Assembly: GCF_008693385.1 (NCBI RefSeq)
Contig: NZ_CP044065.1
Span: 620,001 to 684,000, forward strand
DNA: 64,000 nucleotides
From: Cupriavidus pauculus
GTDB lineage: Bacteria; Pseudomonadota; Gammaproteobacteria; Burkholderiales; Burkholderiaceae
Reading direction: 5' to 3'
The notes below the pieces were generated by a model, which had not been told where the DNA came from, made no database searches, and saw only the letters and a list, made by a program, of their open reading frames with translations. The position numbers and the translations under genes are program-made. This document shows, in pieces, positions 24,589 to 35,253 of the stretch. The stretch's first letter is position 1. Each line of letters starts with the position of its first letter.

Positions 24589-26319
24589 CTACCGCAGCAG
24601 ATTCGTTTTCGCCAACTCCACCAGTTCGTCCGCGCGGCCGTTCATGACGGCCTTCAGGGCCCACAGGCTGAAGCCCTTGACCTGTTCGGCCTTCAGTGCG
24701 GGCGGCATCGCCAGTTCCTGCGTGTTCGTGACCACGTCGAGCAGGGCGGGGCCGTCGTGTTGCAGCATCGCGTCGATGGCGGCCGGGAGGTCGCGCGGGT
24801 CTTCCACGCGCTGGCCCCAGATGCCGATGGCGCGGGCCATGGCACCGAAGTCTGGATTGTCGAGGGCGGTGCCGGTCTCCAGCAGGCCCGCGGCTTTCAT
24901 TTCCAATGCGACGAAGCCCAGCACGCTGTTGTTGAAGATCACGACCTTCACGGGCAGCTTCTGCTGAGTGAGCGTGAGGAAGTCGCCCATCATCATCGCA
25001 AAGCCGCCGTCGCCGGACATGCTGATGATCTGGCGGCCGGGATAGGCCGATTGCGCGCCGATGGCCTGCGGCAGGGCGTTGGCCATCGAGCCGTGCGCGA
25101 GCGAGCCGATCAGCCGGCGCTTGCCGTTCATGCGCAGATAGCGGGCCGCCCAGATCGTCGGGGTGCCGACGTCGAACGTGAAGACGGCATCTTCCGACGC
25201 CTTCTCGCTCAGTAGCCGCGCGACATGCTGCGGGTGGATCGGCTTGCGGCCGCTGTCGCCGCTGGCCAGGTCGTCGAGCTCCTTGCGCGCGCTGCGATAG
25301 TGGCGCACGCACGCATCGAGGTATGTGGTGTCGGTCTTCGCGGTCAGCAACGGTTGCAGCGCATCGAGCGTGGCGCCGACATCGCCGACGAGGCCGAGAT
25401 CGAGTCGCGTGCGCCGGCCCAGATTCTCCGCGCGGACATCGATCTGGATGACCCTCGCATGCGACGGATAGAACTGCCGATACGGGAAATCGGTCCCGAG
25501 CATCAGCAGCGTGTCGCAGTTCTCCATCGCGTGATAGCCCGAGCTGAAGCCGATCAGCCCGGTCATGCCGACATCGTACGGATTGTCGTACTCGATGTAT
25601 TCCTTGCCGCCCAGCGCATGCACGATGGGCGCCTTCAGCGTTTCGGCAAGACGCACGACCTGATCGTGGCTGCCCGCGCAGCCTCGCCCGCACAGCATCG
25701 TGACCTTGCCGCTGTCCGCGAGCATCTGCGCCAGCGTGGTCAGCGACGCCTGGTCGGGTACGACCACCGGCTCTTTCGGGATCAGTGCGGCCGGCGCGGA
25801 CATGCCTGCGGACACCTGCCGCAGCGCCACGTCGCCGGGAATCACGACGACCGCGACGCCGCGCTTGCCGACGGCCGTGCGGATGGCCGTCTCCAGCACA
25901 CCGGGCAACTGATCGACGCTCGTGACGAGCTCGCAGTAGTGACTGCATTCGCGGAACAGGTTCTCCGGATGCGTCTCCTGAAAATAGTTGCGGCCGATCT
26001 CGGCACTCGGAATATGCGCGGCGATCGCCAGCACCGGCACCCGCGATCGATGGCAATCGAACAGGCCGTTGATCAGATGCAGGTTGCCCGGCCCGCAACT
26101 GCCCGCGCACACGGCGAGGTCGCCGGTCAGATGCGCCTCGGCGCCCGCGGCAAATGCGGCCGCTTCTTCATGGCGCGTGTGGATCCAGTCGATGTCCTCG
26201 CGTTTGCGCAACGATTCCGTAATGCCGTTGAGGCTGTCGCCGACGACGCCATAGATGCGCTGTACACCGGCATTGGCGAGGACGGCGGTGATGAGATCGG
26301 CTGCGAGGGTGGCGGGCAT
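24589..26319 (-). CDS. poxB: Ubiquinone-dependent pyruvate dehydrogenase (pyruvate oxidase)
   Basis: A 576-residue thiamine-diphosphate enzyme that oxidatively decarboxylates pyruvate to acetate and CO2, passing electrons to ubiquinone. It has the N-terminal TPP half ([38 protein letters not shown]), a central FAD-type domain and the C-terminal TPP motif [12 protein letters not shown] with NN about 30 residues on. Length matches E. coli PoxB (572). The start at 26319 has an AAGGAG ribosome-binding site; the frame is open to 26424. The acetate produced could feed acs, which lies 5.6 kb away. Confidence 0.92.
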
Positions 26320-26501
26320 GCTGGCTCCTTGATGACTGGCAATCGACGGTGTGCGGCAAAGGTGGTCTGGAAGTGTCGACGCGCGGGGGCGCGCCGGAGT
26401 TCCGTACCGGCGTCCCGCCCGCACGATGTTTCACTGTAGTGCCTGCCGAGGCGGTTCGTTGTCGCGTGTGGGACGCATTGGCCGTAAAGCGTGCCGGACA
26501 T

Positions 26502-26557: not shown

Positions 26558-27880
26558 TCAGGCGCCCACGCGTGCCCCCGCCGATGTGGTGGCCGCCTCC
26601 GAGGCGAACAGCCGTTTCGACGATGCCACGTGGCTGGCCAGCACCGGTCTCAGTACCGTGAAGGCGAGGAAGGCCGCGGTCAGGTCCATCGCGGCGACGG
26701 TGTAGAGCACCGTCGACCACGTGCCCGTGGCTTCCATCATCAGGTTGCCGATCGGCACGAACAGTGCGCCAATGCCCTTCGCCGTGTAGAGCACGCCGTA
26801 GATCTTGCCGATGTGCTTGGTGCCGAATGCATCGCCGGCCAGCGCGGAGAACAGCGAGTACACCTCGCCCCACGCCAGGAACACGACGCCGGACAGGATC
26901 AGGAACGCGTACGGATTGCTGCCCCAGTAGCCAAGCGCGATGATGCCGAAGCCTTCGAGCGTGAACGCGATGACCATCGTTTTCTCTCGGCCGATGTTGT
27001 CCGAGATCCAGCCGAACAGCGGGCGCGAGATACCGTTCATGATGCGGTCCAGCATCAGCGCGAGGGGCAGCGCGGCCATCACGAAGAAGTGCAGGTCGAC
27101 CTGGAACTCCTTGACGCCGAGGTCCTTCGCGATGACGCCGAGCTGCGCCACGGCCATCATGCCGCCCGTGACCACGAGCACGAACATGACGAGCATCAGC
27201 CAGAACAGCTTGGTGCTCATGGCCTCCTTGAGCGTGTAGTCGCGCGTGGCCTGTGCCAGCTTGCTCGATGCGCGGACCTCGGTAGCCTTCGGTGCACGCA
27301 GGAACCAGGCCGCGACGAACGCGATGGAGCCCTGCAGCAGCCCGAAGAACAGGAAGGTTTCCTGGTAGCCGGCCGATTCGATCATCGACGCGATGGGCAG
27401 GATCGTCGCCGCGGAGCCGGCGCCGTAGCCGCCCGCCGTGAGGCCGACCGCGAGACCGCGCCGGTCCGGGAACCATTTGAGCGCGTTGTTGATACAGGTG
27501 GCGTAGATCGAGCCCACGCCGATACCGCCGACGGCCGCGCCGATATAGAAGCCCATGAGCGTGGTGGCCTGCGCGTTGATGACCCATGCCGTGCCGATCA
27601 TGATGGCGCCGAACGCGACCATCAGCCGTGGCCCGAACTTGTCGATAAAGTAGCCCTCGATCGGTGCCAGCCACGTCTGCACGAGTACGAACAGCGTGAA
27701 GGCGACCTGGATCTGTGCGCGGGGCCAGCCGTAGGTTTCCTCGATTTCCGGGACGAACAGCGTCCAGGCGTACTGGATGTTGGCCGTGGCCACCATGCAG
27801 ACCACGCCCGCGATCAGCTGGAGCCACCGCTTGTTGTCCGTTGGCTGGTTGGGGGAGAGCGTTGCCGATGCGTTATTCAT
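26558..27880 (-). CDS. MFS transporter, oxalate/formate antiporter family (OxlT-like)
   Basis: A 440-residue major-facilitator protein with twelve helices. It matches the OFA (oxalate:formate antiporter) subfamily: NIQYAWTLFVPEIEETYGWP at the first helix, IDKFGPRLMVAFGAIMIG as the loop 2-3 motif, and LYTAKGIGALFVPIGN in helix 11, where OxlT has its substrate-binding lysine. It probably exchanges a small carboxylate; with no formyl-CoA transferase or oxalyl-CoA decarboxylase gene nearby, oxalate is not certain. AGGAG lies about 10 bases before the ATG. The upstream region is unusual. Confidence 0.85.
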   Translation of the reverse strand: MNNASATLSPNQPTDNKRWLQLIAGVVCMVATANIQYAWTLFVPEIEETYGWPRAQIQVAFTLFVLVQTWLAPIEGYFIDKFGPRLMVAFGAIMIGTAWVINAQATTLMGFYIGAAVGGIGVGSIYATCINNALKWFPDRRGLAVGLTAGGYGAGSAATILPIASMIESAGYQETFLFFGLLQGSIAFVAAWFLRAPKATEVRASSKLAQATRDYTLKEAMSTKLFWLMLVMFVLVVTGGMMAVAQLGVIAKDLGVKEFQVDLHFFVMAALPLALMLDRIMNGISRPLFGWISDNIGREKTMVIAFTLEGFGIIALGYWGSNPYAFLILSGVVFLAWGEVYSLFSALAGDAFGTKHIGKIYGVLYTAKGIGALFVPIGNLMMEATGTWSTVLYTVAAMDLTAAFLAFTVLRPVLASHVASSKRLFASEAATTSAGARVGA

Positions 27881-28284: not shown

Positions 28285-28539
28285 TGAGTCGTGCGATGTG
28301 ACACCAGTCCACGGCACGTTTCTCCTTTATAAATGAAACGCGTACGCCTGCGGGAGGTTTTTTCATTACATTTTGGCAATGTAGCGAAGGGTATTAACAT
28401 TACAGCTTTGTCATAATCGAACATTACAAAACTGTCAGAAATGGATCGGGTAATGGCGGGCGGTGCGGACAAGAACTCGTGCGCCTCCAGACAAGTCTCC
28501 TGGCGACGGGTTTTTTAGACTCCGGAAAGCGGTAGCCGG

Positions 28540-28586: not shown

Positions 28587-29537
28587 ATGAAGAGCCTGTT
28601 CGCCGCCTTCCGTTGCGGCATCCACCGCGGCATCCGTCGCACCCTCATGCTTGCGTGCGCGATCGGTACCGGCGGCATGCTGACCCTGTCCAGCGCGCCG
28701 GTCCATGCCGAGGTATTCACGCCGCCCGCGGCCGAATGCGCGGCGCTGCAGGCCAGGTACCCGCAGTTCAAGGGCAAGACGCTGGTCAACGCCATCAATC
28801 CGCATACGCCCGGCTACGAAACGATCGATCCGAAAGACCCGAGCCGCTATATCGGCTTCGATATCGACCTCGGCGAAACGCTCGGCGCCTGCCTCGGCTT
28901 CAAGGTCACGTACAAGCCGGTGACGTTCGCGGCGCTGCTGACCACGCTGCAGGCGGGCCAGGCGGACTTCGTCATCTCCGATATCTACGCGACCGAAGAG
29001 CGCGCGAAGGCCGCGGACTTCATCACGTACTCGAAGGTGTTCGACGGCGTGCTCGTGGCCAAGGGCAATCCGAAGAAGATCACGGGTATCAACGCATCGT
29101 TGTGCGGCACGGTGGCGGCCGAGAACACCGGTTACGTCGAGGTGCCGCTGATCCAGGCGCTGGCCGCGCAATGCAAGGCGCAGGGCAAGCCCGAGCCGCA
29201 GGTGCAGCTGTACGACAACAACCAGAGCTGCATCCAGGCGATTCTCGCAGGCCGTGCGGACACGTATATCAACGACGTGAACACGGTGGATGGCGCGGTC
29301 AAGGCGTATCCGGACAAGCTCGAGAAGGCGATCGCCGTGACGATTCCGTACTCGGTGGGCATCGCCGTGCCGAAGAACAAGACCGATTTCCGCGAGGCGA
29401 TGATGGCCGCGCTGGTGGTGCTGCAGAAATCCGGCGTGCAGACCGCGATGCTCAAGAAGAACAACCTGCCCGAGGAGAATCTCGAGGCGCCGCGCCTCGT
29501 GCTCGCGAACAGCGCAGCCAACAGCGCGGCCAAGTAA
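28587..29537 (+). CDS. Amino-acid-type ABC transporter substrate-binding protein (family 3)
   Basis: A 316-residue periplasmic protein with a long signal peptide (cleavage near VHA, residue ~41). The mature family-3 solute-binding fold shows YIGFDIDLGETLGACLGFKV, VTFAALLTTLQAGQADFVIS and YATEERAKAADFITYSKVFD. Ligands of this family are polar amino acids, opines or related amides. A strong AAGGGAG ribosome-binding site precedes the start. The permease-ATPase gene follows after 13 bases, and an acetamidase/formamidase after that, suggesting uptake and hydrolysis of an amide or amino-acid amide. Confidence 0.9.
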   Translation: MKSLFAAFRCGIHRGIRRTLMLACAIGTGGMLTLSSAPVHAEVFTPPAAECAALQARYPQFKGKTLVNAINPHTPGYETIDPKDPSRYIGFDIDLGETLGACLGFKVTYKPVTFAALLTTLQAGQADFVISDIYATEERAKAADFITYSKVFDGVLVAKGNPKKITGINASLCGTVAAENTGYVEVPLIQALAAQCKAQGKPEPQVQLYDNNQSCIQAILAGRADTYINDVNTVDGAVKAYPDKLEKAIAVTIPYSVGIAVPKNKTDFREAMMAALVVLQKSGVQTAMLKKNNLPEENLEAPRLVLANSAANSAAK

Positions 29538-29550
29538 CGGCGCGCCGGCG

Positions 29551-31146
<1,596 letters not shown>

Positions 31147-31177: not shown

Positions 31178-32428
31178 ATGAAGCAGCATACTCTTCGCGT
31201 GTCGCCGCAGACCGTGCACTGGGGCTATTTCAGCAAGGCCGTCGCCCCGTCGCTGACGGTGCGATCGGGCGATCGCGTCACGATCGAAACGCTCACGCAC
31301 CATGCCAACGACGACTATGAACGCATGATCGCGGGCGACCCCGGCGCGGAGTCGGTGTTCGCCTGGACGCGCGAGCACAAGGCGATATCGCGCCGGGGCG
31401 CGGGGCCCACCACGGGCACGTTCCAGTACGGCGAAGGCGAGGGCGTCGGCGTGCATCTGCTGACGGGACCCGTGGCGATCGAGGGCGCGGAGCCCGGCGA
31501 CGTGCTCGAGGTGCGCATCCTCGACGTGCGGCCGCGGCCCAGCTGCAGCGCCTGCTTTGCCGGGCGATGCTTCGGATCGAACGCGGCCGCGTCGTGGGGC
31601 TTCCATTACCGCGATCTGATCGAGGAGCCCAAGCCCCGCGAGGTCATCACGATCTTCGAACTCGATACGTCGGGCGAGCCCTATGCGCGCGCGGTCTACA
31701 ACTACATCTGGACGCCGCAGACCGATCCCGATGGCGTGGTGCATCCCACGATCGACTATCCGGGCGTGCGCGTCGACCATAGCCTGGTGCGCAAGCGCGA
31801 GAACATCCTGCGCGATGTGAAGGTGCCCGCGCGGCTGCATTTCGGCACGATGGGCCTCGCGCCCTCGGAGTCCGATTTCGTGAGCTCGATTCCGCCGAGC
31901 TATACCGGCGGCAATATCGATGACTGGCGCGTCGGCAAGGGCGCGCGCATGTACTATCCGGTGGCCGTGGCCGGCGCGTTCTTCTCGGTGGGCGATCCGC
32001 ATGCGGCGCAGGGCGACAGCGAGCTCGGCGGCACCGCGATCGAAACGTCGCTGACCGGCGATTTCGAGTTCGTGCTGCACAAGAAGAACCAGCTGGAGGG
32101 CACGATCCTCGAGGGGCTCGATCATCCGATGCTCGAGACCGACGAGCAGTGGTCGGTGTACGGCTTCACGTTCCCGAACTATCTGGCGGCGCTGGGCCCC
32201 GATGCGCAGACCGCCGTGGCGCAGCACTCGTCGCTGGACCAGGCCATGCGCGATGCGTTCCGCAAGCTGCGGCGCTTTCTGATGCAGGTGCATAGGCTCA
32301 GCGAGGACGAGGCCATTGCGCTGCTATCGGTGGCGGCCGATTTCGGGGTGACGCAGGTGGTGGATGCGAACTGGGGCGTGCATGGCTCGATCCGCAAGGA
32401 GGTGTTTGGGCGGCAGTTCGGCCGATAG
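31178..32428 (+). CDS. Acetamidase/formamidase family protein
   Basis: A 416-residue FmdA_AmdA-family hydrolase, which releases ammonia from short amides such as formamide or acetamide. Landmarks are VHWGYFSKAVAPSLTVRSGD, TREHKAISRRGAGPT, the cysteine cluster CSACFAGRCFGSNAA, FVSSIPPSYTGGNID and VGDPHAAQGDSELGGTAIE. There is no signal peptide. It is the last gene of the ABC-transporter operon, so the imported solute is probably an amide it cleaves. Its sequence is closely paralogous over full length to the C-terminal half of the convergent AraC fusion, whose stop lies only 5 bases away. Confidence 0.9.
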   Translation: MKQHTLRVSPQTVHWGYFSKAVAPSLTVRSGDRVTIETLTHHANDDYERMIAGDPGAESVFAWTREHKAISRRGAGPTTGTFQYGEGEGVGVHLLTGPVAIEGAEPGDVLEVRILDVRPRPSCSACFAGRCFGSNAAASWGFHYRDLIEEPKPREVITIFELDTSGEPYARAVYNYIWTPQTDPDGVVHPTIDYPGVRVDHSLVRKRENILRDVKVPARLHFGTMGLAPSESDFVSSIPPSYTGGNIDDWRVGKGARMYYPVAVAGAFFSVGDPHAAQGDSELGGTAIETSLTGDFEFVLHKKNQLEGTILEGLDHPMLETDEQWSVYGFTFPNYLAALGPDAQTAVAQHSSLDQAMRDAFRKLRRFLMQVHRLSEDEAIALLSVAADFGVTQVVDANWGVHGSIRKEVFGRQFGR

Positions 32429-32433
32429 CCCGG

Positions 32434-34848
32434 TCATGCGGACGGCTGCCTGTCCCGCAGCCGTTGCCGGAACATCGCCTTGCGCACCACCGCATGCACG
32501 CCCCAGTTGCCGTCGACGACCTGCGTCACGCCGAAGTCGACGGCCACGGACATCAGCGAGATCGCTTCGTCCTCGGTCAGGCCCATTGCGGTCATCAGGA
32601 AGCGGCGCGTCTTGCGGAACGCATCGCGCATGGCGGGATCCAGCGACGAGTTCTCGTAGACGAGGCTGCGTGCCTGATCGCCGAGATCCTTGAGATAGTT
32701 GGCGTGCGAGAAGCCGTGCAGCACCCACTCGTCGGCGGTTTCCACGAGCGGGTAGTCGATATCGGCGAACGGCTCGGTGGTCAGGTCCCGCGCCTTGTGC
32801 AGGACGATCTGGAACACGCCCGTGAGCGAGCATTCGATCGCGGTGCCGCACAGTTCGCTGTCGCCTTGCGAGGCATGCGGGTCGCCGACGGATAGCAGGC
32901 CGCCATCGACGCCCACGCGCAGATAGACGGTGGCGCCCTTGGCGATGCGCCAGTTGTCGAGATTGCCGCCGAAGTAGGACGGCGGAATTGAATCCACCAC
33001 GCCCGTTTCCGCGGGCGCGAGCGCAATCACGCCGAAGTGCGGCCGCACGGGAATCTCGATGCCGGCGAGCACGCCGTGGTTCTCGACGATCGACGCGCGG
33101 TCGATCGGCACGCCGGGATAGTCGATGGTCGGATGCAGCGTGCCGCTGGGATCGCGCTGCGGCGTCCAGCGGAAGTTGTAGACCGCGTGCGCGCACGTGC
33201 GGCCGGGCTCGCAGTTGACCTCGTAGATGGTGATGACCTCGCGCGGCCTCGGCGCTTCGATGAGGTCGTCGTAATGAAAACCCCACCAGGTGGCCGCGTT
33301 GCTGCCGAAGGCGCGCTGCGCATAGCGCGCGTTGGCCGTAAGCCGCGGCGCGAGGTCGAGAATGCGCACCTCGAGCACGTCGCCGGGCTCGGCGTCCTTC
33401 ACATAGATCGGTCCCGTGCAGATATGCACGCCGAAGCCTTCGCCGCTGCCGCGCCCGTAGATGGACGCATCGGTGGGTCCCGCGCCGCGGCGGTCGATGG
33501 CCTTGTGTTCGCGCGTCCACTGAAACACGCGCTCGGCCCCGGAGTCCCCCTTGATCATGCGGTCGTAATCGTCGTACGCATGCTGTGTGAGCGTTTCGAT
33601 GGTGACGATGTCGCCCGAGTCGATCGTGAGCACCGGCGGGATGGTCTGGCTGAAGTAGCCCCAGTGGATGGTCTCGGGCGTGGCGGGCAGGTGATGATGG
33701 CGGCCGGCTGGCGATTCGGCGATGGCGGCGGAAGCGTCCCTTTGCGGCGATGTCGCCGTGGCGACGCGCGCATCGGCCGGCGCTTCCAGTGGCACATCGG
33801 GCTGTGTCTCGAAGTATCCCGAGGGCCAGCCGCGCCGGATGCGCTTGCGCAGCGTCTGCTGGCTGGCCTCGTTGGCCTGCTGCCGGTACTGCCGTGGCGA
33901 CATCTTGTACCGGTCGCGGAACGCATGGCTGAAGTGCGCCGCATCGTTGAAGCCCCACCGAAAGCAGATATCGGAGATGGACAGGTGCCCGTACTGGCGG
34001 CTGCCGAGATCGGCGCGGCATTGTTCGAGGCGGCGCTGCCGCACGTAGCCGGTGAACGTCTGTCCCGTGCCTTCGAATAGCTTCTGCACGAGCCGCTCGG
34101 AGATGTTCTCGTGCGCGGCGACAAGGGCGAGCGAGAGGGCGGGATCGCTGAGCGCGCTTTCGATGAACTGGCAGACGCGGCGATAGGTGGCGGCCTGCGT
34201 GCTGCCGATGGCGGCGGTGGCATTGTCGTGCCGGTCGGCGAGACTCGTGGCCACGTAGTCGAGCAGCGACGATTCGACGGTGGAGACTTCGTCGTCGCTG
34301 AGCGTGTCGAACGCGTCGGCCAGCGCGCCGAGTGTGCCAGCCAGCAGGCGTCCCATGCCCGCCTGGCCCGACAGATGGCCGGTCAGCAGCGCCTGCGCGT
34401 CGGGCAGGCGCGATTTCAGGGCCGCCGCGGGCACGGAGACGAGGAACTGGCGAAAGTCGGAATCGAAGACGAGGCGCGCGGCCGTATGCGTGGGCCCGTA
34501 GACGATGTCGCCCGGCGACAGCGCGACGGCCTGGTCCCCATCGTGGAGCGCGGCGCGCCCGGTTTGGTGCAGGGCGAGCCAGATCGCGTCGCCGCCACGG
34601 TCGGCCCGATCGAGGTCCGCGGCGCCACCCGCGTGCGCGAGCGTCTGCGCACACGAGGCAATGCGCACGAGTCCCACGCCCCGGCCCGTGCGCGCCGCCG
34701 TAAGCTGACCGAAGATCTGTGGCGCCAGCAACGGCGAGGCTTCCGAGGCGATGGCGGACTGCAGCTGGTGCGGACGCAACGCTTCCCGCCAGACCTGCGC
34801 GCGCTGATGGATCGGATAGGACTCGGTGGTGAACTGTTCGATGCGCAC
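32434..34848 (-). CDS. AraC-family regulator fused to a complete acetamidase/formamidase
   Basis: One uninterrupted frame encodes two proteins that are normally separate. Residues ~40-190 are an AraC-binding-like sensory domain (FGQLTAARTGRGVGLVRIAS, LSPGDIVYGPTHTAARLVFD). Residues ~230-325 are the double helix-turn-helix (VAAHENISERLVQKLFEGTG, ISDICFRWGFNDAAHFSHAF). A ~60-residue Ala/Pro-rich linker follows. Residues ~386-804 are a full FmdA domain (RRGAGPT, DSIPPSYFGGNLD, VGDPHASQGDSELCGTAIE) that keeps most motifs of the neighbour at 31178 but has TANARYAQR where that enzyme has CSACFAGRC. The start is uncertain: the GTG at 34848 (VRIEQFTTESY) fits family beginnings; the frame is open to 35073. 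It probably senses an amide and controls the adjacent transporter-amidase operon. Confidence 0.88.
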   Translation of the reverse strand: MRIEQFTTESYPIHQRAQVWREALRPHQLQSAIASEASPLLAPQIFGQLTAARTGRGVGLVRIASCAQTLAHAGGAADLDRADRGGDAIWLALHQTGRAALHDGDQAVALSPGDIVYGPTHTAARLVFDSDFRQFLVSVPAAALKSRLPDAQALLTGHLSGQAGMGRLLAGTLGALADAFDTLSDDEVSTVESSLLDYVATSLADRHDNATAAIGSTQAATYRRVCQFIESALSDPALSLALVAAHENISERLVQKLFEGTGQTFTGYVRQRRLEQCRADLGSRQYGHLSISDICFRWGFNDAAHFSHAFRDRYKMSPRQYRQQANEASQQTLRKRIRRGWPSGYFETQPDVPLEAPADARVATATSPQRDASAAIAESPAGRHHHLPATPETIHWGYFSQTIPPVLTIDSGDIVTIETLTQHAYDDYDRMIKGDSGAERVFQWTREHKAIDRRGAGPTDASIYGRGSGEGFGVHICTGPIYVKDAEPGDVLEVRILDLAPRLTANARYAQRAFGSNAATWWGFHYDDLIEAPRPREVITIYEVNCEPGRTCAHAVYNFRWTPQRDPSGTLHPTIDYPGVPIDRASIVENHGVLAGIEIPVRPHFGVIALAPAETGVVDSIPPSYFGGNLDNWRIAKGATVYLRVGVDGGLLSVGDPHASQGDSELCGTAIECSLTGVFQIVLHKARDLTTEPFADIDYPLVETADEWVLHGFSHANYLKDLGDQARSLVYENSSLDPAMRDAFRKTRRFLMTAMGLTEDEAISLMSVAVDFGVTQVVDGNWGVHAVVRKAMFRQRLRDRQPSA

Positions 34849-35253
34849 TGCCGGCTCGCTGGGAAGGTCCGTCGCGAGACAGCAAGTCTTATGCCATTGC
34901 CGCGGTGCCTGCGGTTCGCCCGCACCCGGCACGCCATGCGCGCCCGATCCCTCGACGCGTCCCCACCCGGGCCGCACTTCACTGCGCATTACGCACCCCC
35001 GTGCCGCCCCGATGTTCGCTATCGAAAGGGCTTTCCCACGCAAGTGTAGACGTGTGCACCCCGGCGATTGCATGCGCGAATGTCTGCTGCGTTTACACCA
35101 CGAAAGCGCGACGGAAACGCGTCGAAACGCAACGAGAACGCCAGATTGAAGTGGGCCTCGAATGTGGGGGCATCGAACGCGCGAGGCTGCGTGCTACCCT
35201 TCAGCTTTTGCCAAGAATGCCGTAATTGGACTATCTGGCTTTGGAGAAACGTA

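Follow-up and report, generated by a model that had tools for sequence, protein, structure and literature searches.

Enzyme folds joined to a DNA-binding part in one chain are known from trigger enzymes and enzyme-derived regulators such as PutA, GabR/MocR, and Ada. In a trigger enzyme of the PutA kind, the enzyme is active and its ligand state governs DNA binding within the same chain. The GATase1-AraC proteins carry an AraC DNA-binding part together with an enzyme fold that possibly senses; in these the enzyme fold is N-terminal and replaces the cupin. Here, we describe a gene of Cupriavidus pauculus, in a 64,000-nucleotide stretch of contig NZ_CP044065.1 (positions 620,001 to 684,000, hereafter the window), whose product joins an AraC-type regulator to an acetamidase/formamidase (FmdA) domain. 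PutA, GabR/MocR, and Ada involve other folds and other chemistry, whereas this fusion protein has an enzyme of the same family encoded next door, and unlike the GATase1-AraC proteins it keeps a cupin-like domain and adds a C-terminal enzyme with an intact core. Enzyme-derived regulators are known as such; this one retains a near-unchanged amidase as a C-terminal extension of a full AraC regulator, together with the same-family enzyme next door and a recognizable predicted operator. The fusion protein is probably a dedicated activator of the adjoining amide uptake and hydrolysis operon, with the FmdA half as a signal-input module, and with everything in one protein, sensing, catalysis, and promoter control should be separable by simple mutants.

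The enzyme half resembles 3b9t, a solved, "predicted" acetamidase/formamidase of Methylobacillus flagellatus that is named a Tat (twin-arginine translocation) signal protein. The two are 60% identical over the FmdA fold and both are without the Cys cluster discussed below; 3b9t differs in having no DNA-binding part, in being exported by name, and in carrying His at position 422. The regulator half resembles FeaR and other AraC/XylS regulators, in that residues 43-325 match the FeaR model (NCBIfam NF007243) with 128.4 bits and a predicted direct-repeat operator overlaps the -35 region. The score lies below the FeaR cutoff of 199, however, and the fusion protein adds an FmdA tail.

For amide metabolism, a passage of PMC10781810 describes the fmdCABDEF genes of Methylophilus methylotrophus, which are induced by formamide and cover a formamidase, a putative regulator of the positive kind, and the uptake of short-chain amides by a binding-protein-dependent system. 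That passage contains no AraC-FmdA fusion, and the word AraC is absent from PMC10781810; passages of PMC8567248, PMC13209695, and PMC10945327 are likewise without the fusion. No description of an AraC-FmdA protein was found in the open-licence full-text literature, as covered by titles, the starts of abstracts, and passages, with subscription papers mostly outside it. The sequences themselves are already known in public records; neither their reading as regulators, nor the operator, nor the grouping in one clade was found in that literature. Among the 16 best public plasmid records, six of the seven named features read "acetamidase/formamidase family protein" and one reads "AraC family transcriptional regulator", so the regulator is mostly filed as an enzyme.

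Domain organization of the fusion protein

The minus strand from 34848 to 32434 is a single stop-free frame of 804 codons plus stop, as an earlier note made from the sequence had proposed, and its three Pfam domains all exceed their gathering scores. A cupin-like effector/dimerization domain, AraC_binding_2 (PF14525, residues 76-193, 34270..34623, minus strand, 40.1 bits), is followed by the DNA-binding domain HTH_18 (PF12833, residues 244-324, 33877..34119, minus strand, 70.3 bits). Together with a match of 33.0 bits to HTH_AraC, also above the cutoff, this is the double helix-turn-helix (HTH) of about 100 residues that defines AraC/XylS regulators, placed here not at the C-terminal end but ahead of FmdA. 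A variable linker (residues 332-378, 33715..33855, minus strand; mean identity 20% over residues 340-380) leads into the FmdA domain (residues 381-795, 32464..33708, minus strand). The Pfam model FmdA_AmdA (PF03069) scores 92 bits against a gathering score of 27, with its best stretch at residues 620-779. The FmdA half is nevertheless complete, because residues 381-795 align to the solved 3b9t with 601 bits (phmmer). An AlphaFold2 model built from an input of 36 fused sequences has a mean predicted local distance difference test (pLDDT) score of 77.4 and a predicted template modeling score of 0.54, with pLDDT below 50 in the linker; compared by Foldseek with 3b9t_B, it gives 60% identity and a template modeling score of 0.90 by target length. 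None of the listed NCBIfam AraC models has its best stretch within the FmdA tail. The NCBIfam equivalog for formamidase FmdA (NF045496, cutoff 500) is reached neither by the fusion protein (54.2 bits) nor by the neighboring FmdA (66.7 bits).

The GTG start at 34848 is backed by NTG codons at the equivalent position of aligned relatives, and a longer ATG open reading frame from 35073 is not needed. Separate translation of FmdA from an inner start may occur but was rejected as a conserved feature on the counts of in-frame start codons: between the HTH and W396, an in-frame ATG occurs in 19 of 78 fused frames and a GTG in 67, and an inner ATG or GTG with a Shine-Dalgarno-like stretch occurs in 11.

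Distribution and phylogeny

A genome scan with the fusion protein as the query gave 128 relatives, and the best 80, representing 78 distinct loci, were kept. Both halves lie in one open frame in 77 of these 78 fetched loci, a figure that is no measure of frequency because best-scoring selection favors full-length matches. The fused loci span beta-, alpha-, and gammaproteobacteria; by record, the hosts are Burkholderiales, Parvibaculum and other Alphaproteobacteria, and Gammaproteobacteria such as Aliiglaciecola, Paraglaciecola, and Pseudomonas. Orthologues are present in Paraburkholderia xenovorans LB400 (locus L040) and Variovorax paradoxus (L004). According to the earlier note, the fusion would be undone by a frameshift or stop in relatives between residues 325 and 386; none of the 77 external fused loci, selected as these are for matching the fusion, has one there. 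In L070 the frame is broken late in FmdA, and L014 and L075 reach contig ends; all three span the junction. The AraC part is a separate gene, with no fusion, in L076 (Thalassolituus). The annotation of L091 (8409-10818, Rhizobium johnstonii TP60) splits the protein into two genes, one for the N-terminal part of AraC and one for the remainder, with the break inside the regulator and not at the AraC-FmdA junction.

The earlier note had called such an architecture rare, which does not hold up. Within the genus, 15 of the 59 other genomes have a full-length match at 53-55% identity; in three of these the match has an internal stop, which in each case falls outside the stretch aligned as fusion protein. 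In addition, each of 14 plasmid records has a match to at least 80% of the fusion protein. In wider samples, there is one clear fusion (G192) in 149 other genomes of the order, and fusions occur in 7 of 397 other genomes of the phylum. The fusion is patchy rather than singular, yet uncommon in the wider samples. One genome of the order sample, G156, has an FmdA match within an 809-aa open frame. In its best segment, the window copy shares 72-75% identity with copies from Pseudacidovorax, Variovorax, and Ramlibacter and with the Paraburkholderia copy L063, which it adjoins in the FmdA tree (support 82). This suggests that the window copy may have been acquired by horizontal transfer.

In a tree of 153 FmdA domains, from which five stand-alone pieces shorter than 280 aa were excluded, the 78 fused domains (including that of the window) form one clade (quick method, Shimodaira-Hasegawa-like approximate likelihood ratio test 97). 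A second tree of 64 rows added further stand-alone proteins and took its fused rows from 27 of the 78 and 7 new ones; these 34 rows likewise group in a single clade (95/90; 97% of 200 bootstrap trees). The neighboring lineages of the fused clade are stand-alone FmdA proteins. Of the stand-alone proteins that were added, 11 are of the long type and fall outside the Cys-cluster clade; 10 of these have a twin-arginine motif ahead of the domain, in line with 3b9t, a Tat signal protein by name. As to the synteny that the earlier note had proposed to inspect, another FmdA lies in 73 of the 77 external fused loci, within 500 bp in 56 of them. These partners belong to two distant sub-types, S and T, so the class of partner is kept while its sub-type changes.

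The fused domain retains RRGAGPT and GDPHASQGDSE and has TANARYAQR at the position of CSACFAGRC in its paralogue, just as the earlier note had stated, but the weight placed there on the lost cysteines does not hold. A Cys cluster (at least two Cys in the stretch) is found in 36 of the 49 stand-alone S-type enzymes, all inside one clade of 40 rows; the nine S enzymes outside that clade are without it, as is 3b9t, and the fused domain belongs to this side. Loss of the cluster as loss of an active site was rejected, since many stand-alone relatives, the solved 3b9t included, do not have it. An S-type neighbor is found in 47 external fused loci, and 39 of these have an ATP-binding cassette (ABC) importer (35 with the cluster, 4 without). 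The remaining eight have no importer, and all are without the cluster; a twin-arginine motif is found in five of them (L060, L062, L064, L066, and L067), not in L057, L058, and L061, and in no other S or T frame. The cytoplasmic clade thus goes with an importer and the exported enzymes go without one, and three loci have neither.

A conserved predicted operator

In the window, the fusion gene converges on a plus-strand operon made up of a family 3 solute-binding protein (SBP; 28587..29537, PF00497), a polar-amino-acid-type ABC permease fused to its ATPase (29551..31146, PF00528 and PF00005), and, as the last gene, a stand-alone S-type FmdA with the Cys cluster (31178..32428, identified by Pfam, 59% identical to the fused domain). 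The ends of the two converging genes are separated by 5 bases, and the overall arrangement is the one that the earlier note had described. When the sequences ahead of the operon were aligned for the window and 14 close relatives, the block ACAAGnAnTCrTGCG-N7-ACAAGT emerged. Its equivalent, in an unchanged register, precedes S-type ABC operons in 13 further loci and T-type FmdA genes in another 10. As a search pattern we used CAAG-N3-TYRTRCG-N8-CAAG, with CAAG direct repeats 22 bp apart and at most one mismatch in 15 fixed positions; at two mismatches the pattern is noise, with 9 sites in one 607-kb simulation. At one mismatch, 64 sites were found in 59 of 87 loci and none in one first-order Markov simulation of the same loci. 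Nine sites that stand ahead of other genes by the gene calls were dropped (the second sites of L019, L021, and L034 and those of L039, L053, L057, L058, L068, and L075), leaving 55 sites in 53 loci, 52 of them distinct.

In 34 of the 52 distinct sites, a -10-like hexamer, TANN[CA]T, starts precisely 20 bp downstream of the second CAAG, which places that CAAG over the -35 region. A CAAG copy over the -35 region is the geometry of a class II AraC activator site. A tandem direct repeat near the -35 region of the target promoter is typical of AraC/XylS regulators; here the repeat is a predicted site in 59 loci, and 28 of the 87 have none. In the window, the predicted operator, with TCGTGCG between the CAAG repeats, is an exact match at 28469-28496 (plus strand), and a predicted -10 hexamer, TAGACT, follows at the conserved offset (28516-28521, plus strand). 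Only 0.01 such sites are expected by chance in the window at up to three mismatches, and with up to two allowed, no other match occurs in the 7.06-Mb genome, the reversed-pattern control giving 0 matches forward and 1 reverse. Sites are also present in loci that were outside the derivation of the motif, namely L014, L023, L035, L060, L062, L064, L066, and L067. Five more of these (L130-L133 and L135, which are all five of those fetched from one family, four being of one genus) have the site ahead of the solute-binding protein with one mismatch each, and in L134 it stands ahead of a Tat-type FmdA.

Two loci, L018 and L070, contain two operator copies, one before a T-type FmdA and one before an SBP gene on the other strand, and may constitute a small regulon. 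Ahead of the fusion gene itself, a possible half-site, TGGCATAAGACTTGC (34882..34896, minus strand), is mostly conserved in 18 aligned relatives; it is a lead only, because 0.95 such half-sites are expected per window by chance.

Conservation of the FmdA half

Among 36 of the 78 fused proteins, mean pairwise identity is 73% in FmdA, 58% in the HTH, 36% in the AraC N-terminal domain, and 20% in the linker, and the invariant columns number 153 of 415, 22 of 111 (residues 216-326), 3 of 215, and 2 of 41, respectively. FmdA is the most conserved part of the protein, and the family core of GGNxD and GDxHxxxGDxE is intact: N629, D631, D656, H658, D663, and E665 are each kept in at least 76 of the 77 fused sequences with a letter at that position. 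Judged from these alignments, the FmdA half is evidently under strong selection, far more so than the AraC N-terminal domain. Position 422 is His in 49 of 49 S-type and 25 of 26 T-type enzymes and Gln in 71 of the 78 fused domains. D619 and the S-GR loop were also tried as fusion-specific marks and rejected, the same letters being found in the stand-alone L108, L109, L116, L117, and L123; Q422 is the only near-specific mark of the fusion that is left.

Proposed mechanism and alternatives

If the protein is a dedicated activator of the operon, a reading that we hold with moderate confidence, an amide would be brought in by the ABC importer and hydrolyzed by the stand-alone FmdA, while the fusion protein would hold the same amide, or its acid, in its FmdA pocket. 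The bound ligand would alter the seating of the AraC half on the CAAG direct-repeat operator at 28469-28496, and RNA polymerase would be recruited to the promoter of the SBP gene. That the fusion protein binds this operator and activates from it, and that its FmdA pocket senses an amide, we infer from the gene linkage, the conservation, and the promoter geometry taken together. The earlier note had offered two options, an enzyme that reports its substrate to a promoter and an enzyme fold turned into a ligand sensor; the conserved operator before FmdA operons ties the fusion protein to a promoter and agrees with both. In a further version, which appears distinctly unlikely, the FmdA half would bind the inducing amide and switch the AraC half on, then slowly hydrolyze the amide and switch it off. 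Such a self-timing activator would gauge the flux of amide and not its concentration, and the replacement of His422 by Gln, seen in 71 of the 78 fused domains, would have tuned a fast enzyme into a slow timer.

Amide as the class of ligand is suggested by Caballeronia (L089, 1278-6187; also L049 and L050), where the fusion gene is divergent from SBP-ABC-FmdA genes that are followed by genes for a CobW-type GTP-binding protein and nitrile hydratase, since the hydratase would yield amides from nitriles. A nitrile to amide to acid route may thus lie behind the same operator, present there with one mismatch. The same line of context includes a linked RidA, counted in at least 23 of 88 loci, and in the window the oxalate/formate antiporter gene upstream of the operon. 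In Alphaproteobacteria, Parvibaculum included (L033, L039, L041, L045, L047, L053, L068, and L095), the fusion and a T-type FmdA are accompanied by varying Rieske oxygenase, LigB, and TauD genes, a context that perhaps points to an aromatic amide. Because the neighboring genes differ between loci, we name no single substrate.

Several observations weigh against an activator that takes its signal through FmdA. On the operator side, most of the 59 loci with a site were in the alignments from which the motif was derived. No site at one mismatch is present in 28 of the 87 loci, some of them through contig ends; among the 28 are L090-L092, L095, and L096, as well as L026 and L030, which hold an SBP-ABC-FmdA operon yet have no site even at up to two mismatches. 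In six further loci the site lies only ahead of other genes. All ten T-type loci of the window's own genus (L136-L145), in which about 600 bp separate a T-type FmdA from the fusion, are without a recognizable operator. On the FmdA side, conservation of the fused domains falls only slightly short of that of the stand-alone enzymes (76% against 79% in 48 loci with S and likewise 76% against 79% in 25 with T), and an active enzyme would also keep its core. His422 is retained in seven fused domains (L024, L046, L052, L053, L054, L055, and L075), and the matching stretch of the distant solved members 2f4l and 3tkk is not His-His. The model has pLDDT below 50 also in the FmdA stretches 455-472, 521-526, 626-629, and 659-666, which include core loops. 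An ordinary AraC effector domain is still present and could be the sensor.

Such a sensing N-terminal domain is central to a bifunctional protein, in which the FmdA half would be a working amidase and the fusion would just couple the dose of enzyme to the regulator. In its favor, the core residues survive in at least 76 of 77 sequences, fused and stand-alone FmdA are similarly conserved, and the tree neighbors are stand-alone FmdA proteins, with a twin-arginine motif in 10 of the 11 that were added. We nevertheless consider it unlikely: with another FmdA in 73 of 77 loci an extra enzyme on the regulator would add little, the N-terminal domain is weakly conserved (36%, 3 of 215 columns invariant), and the change of His422 to Gln is near-specific to the fusions. 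The regular presence of a stand-alone FmdA as partner (73 of 77) would also fit a structural adaptor, which sets the oligomeric state or docks onto the partner and binds no ligand. This seems very doubtful, as 153 invariant columns of 415 and a family core that is nearly so are more than an adaptor seems to need.

The siteless loci bear equally on whether the AraC half controls different genes, the conserved repeat being bound by another factor; both the 28 of 87 loci and the ten of ten in the same genus fit this, and in the window the operon does not include the fusion gene, which forms a unit of its own and converges on it. Yet the same operator is found ahead of S-type ABC operons and of FmdA genes of both the T type and the Tat type, with the fusion protein beside all three, and we give the idea a slim chance. 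A neutral or artefactual fusion with no joint function could appeal to L076, with its AraC and FmdA as separate genes, but 77 of 78 loci are joined, the fused domains form one clade, and an otherwise variable linker contains no stop. The comparative data bring this last explanation close to refuted.

Genomic context

The next gene upstream of the ABC/FmdA operon, divergent from it, encodes an oxalate/formate antiporter of the major facilitator superfamily (26558-27880, minus strand; TIGR04259, 575 bits against a cutoff of 335). A clustered relative of this antiporter is found near the fusion in L063, and the protein could export formate derived from formamide. The window also contains a ubiquinone-dependent pyruvate dehydrogenase, PoxB, at 24589-26424 on the minus strand (NF006591, 1010 bits against a cutoff of 792).

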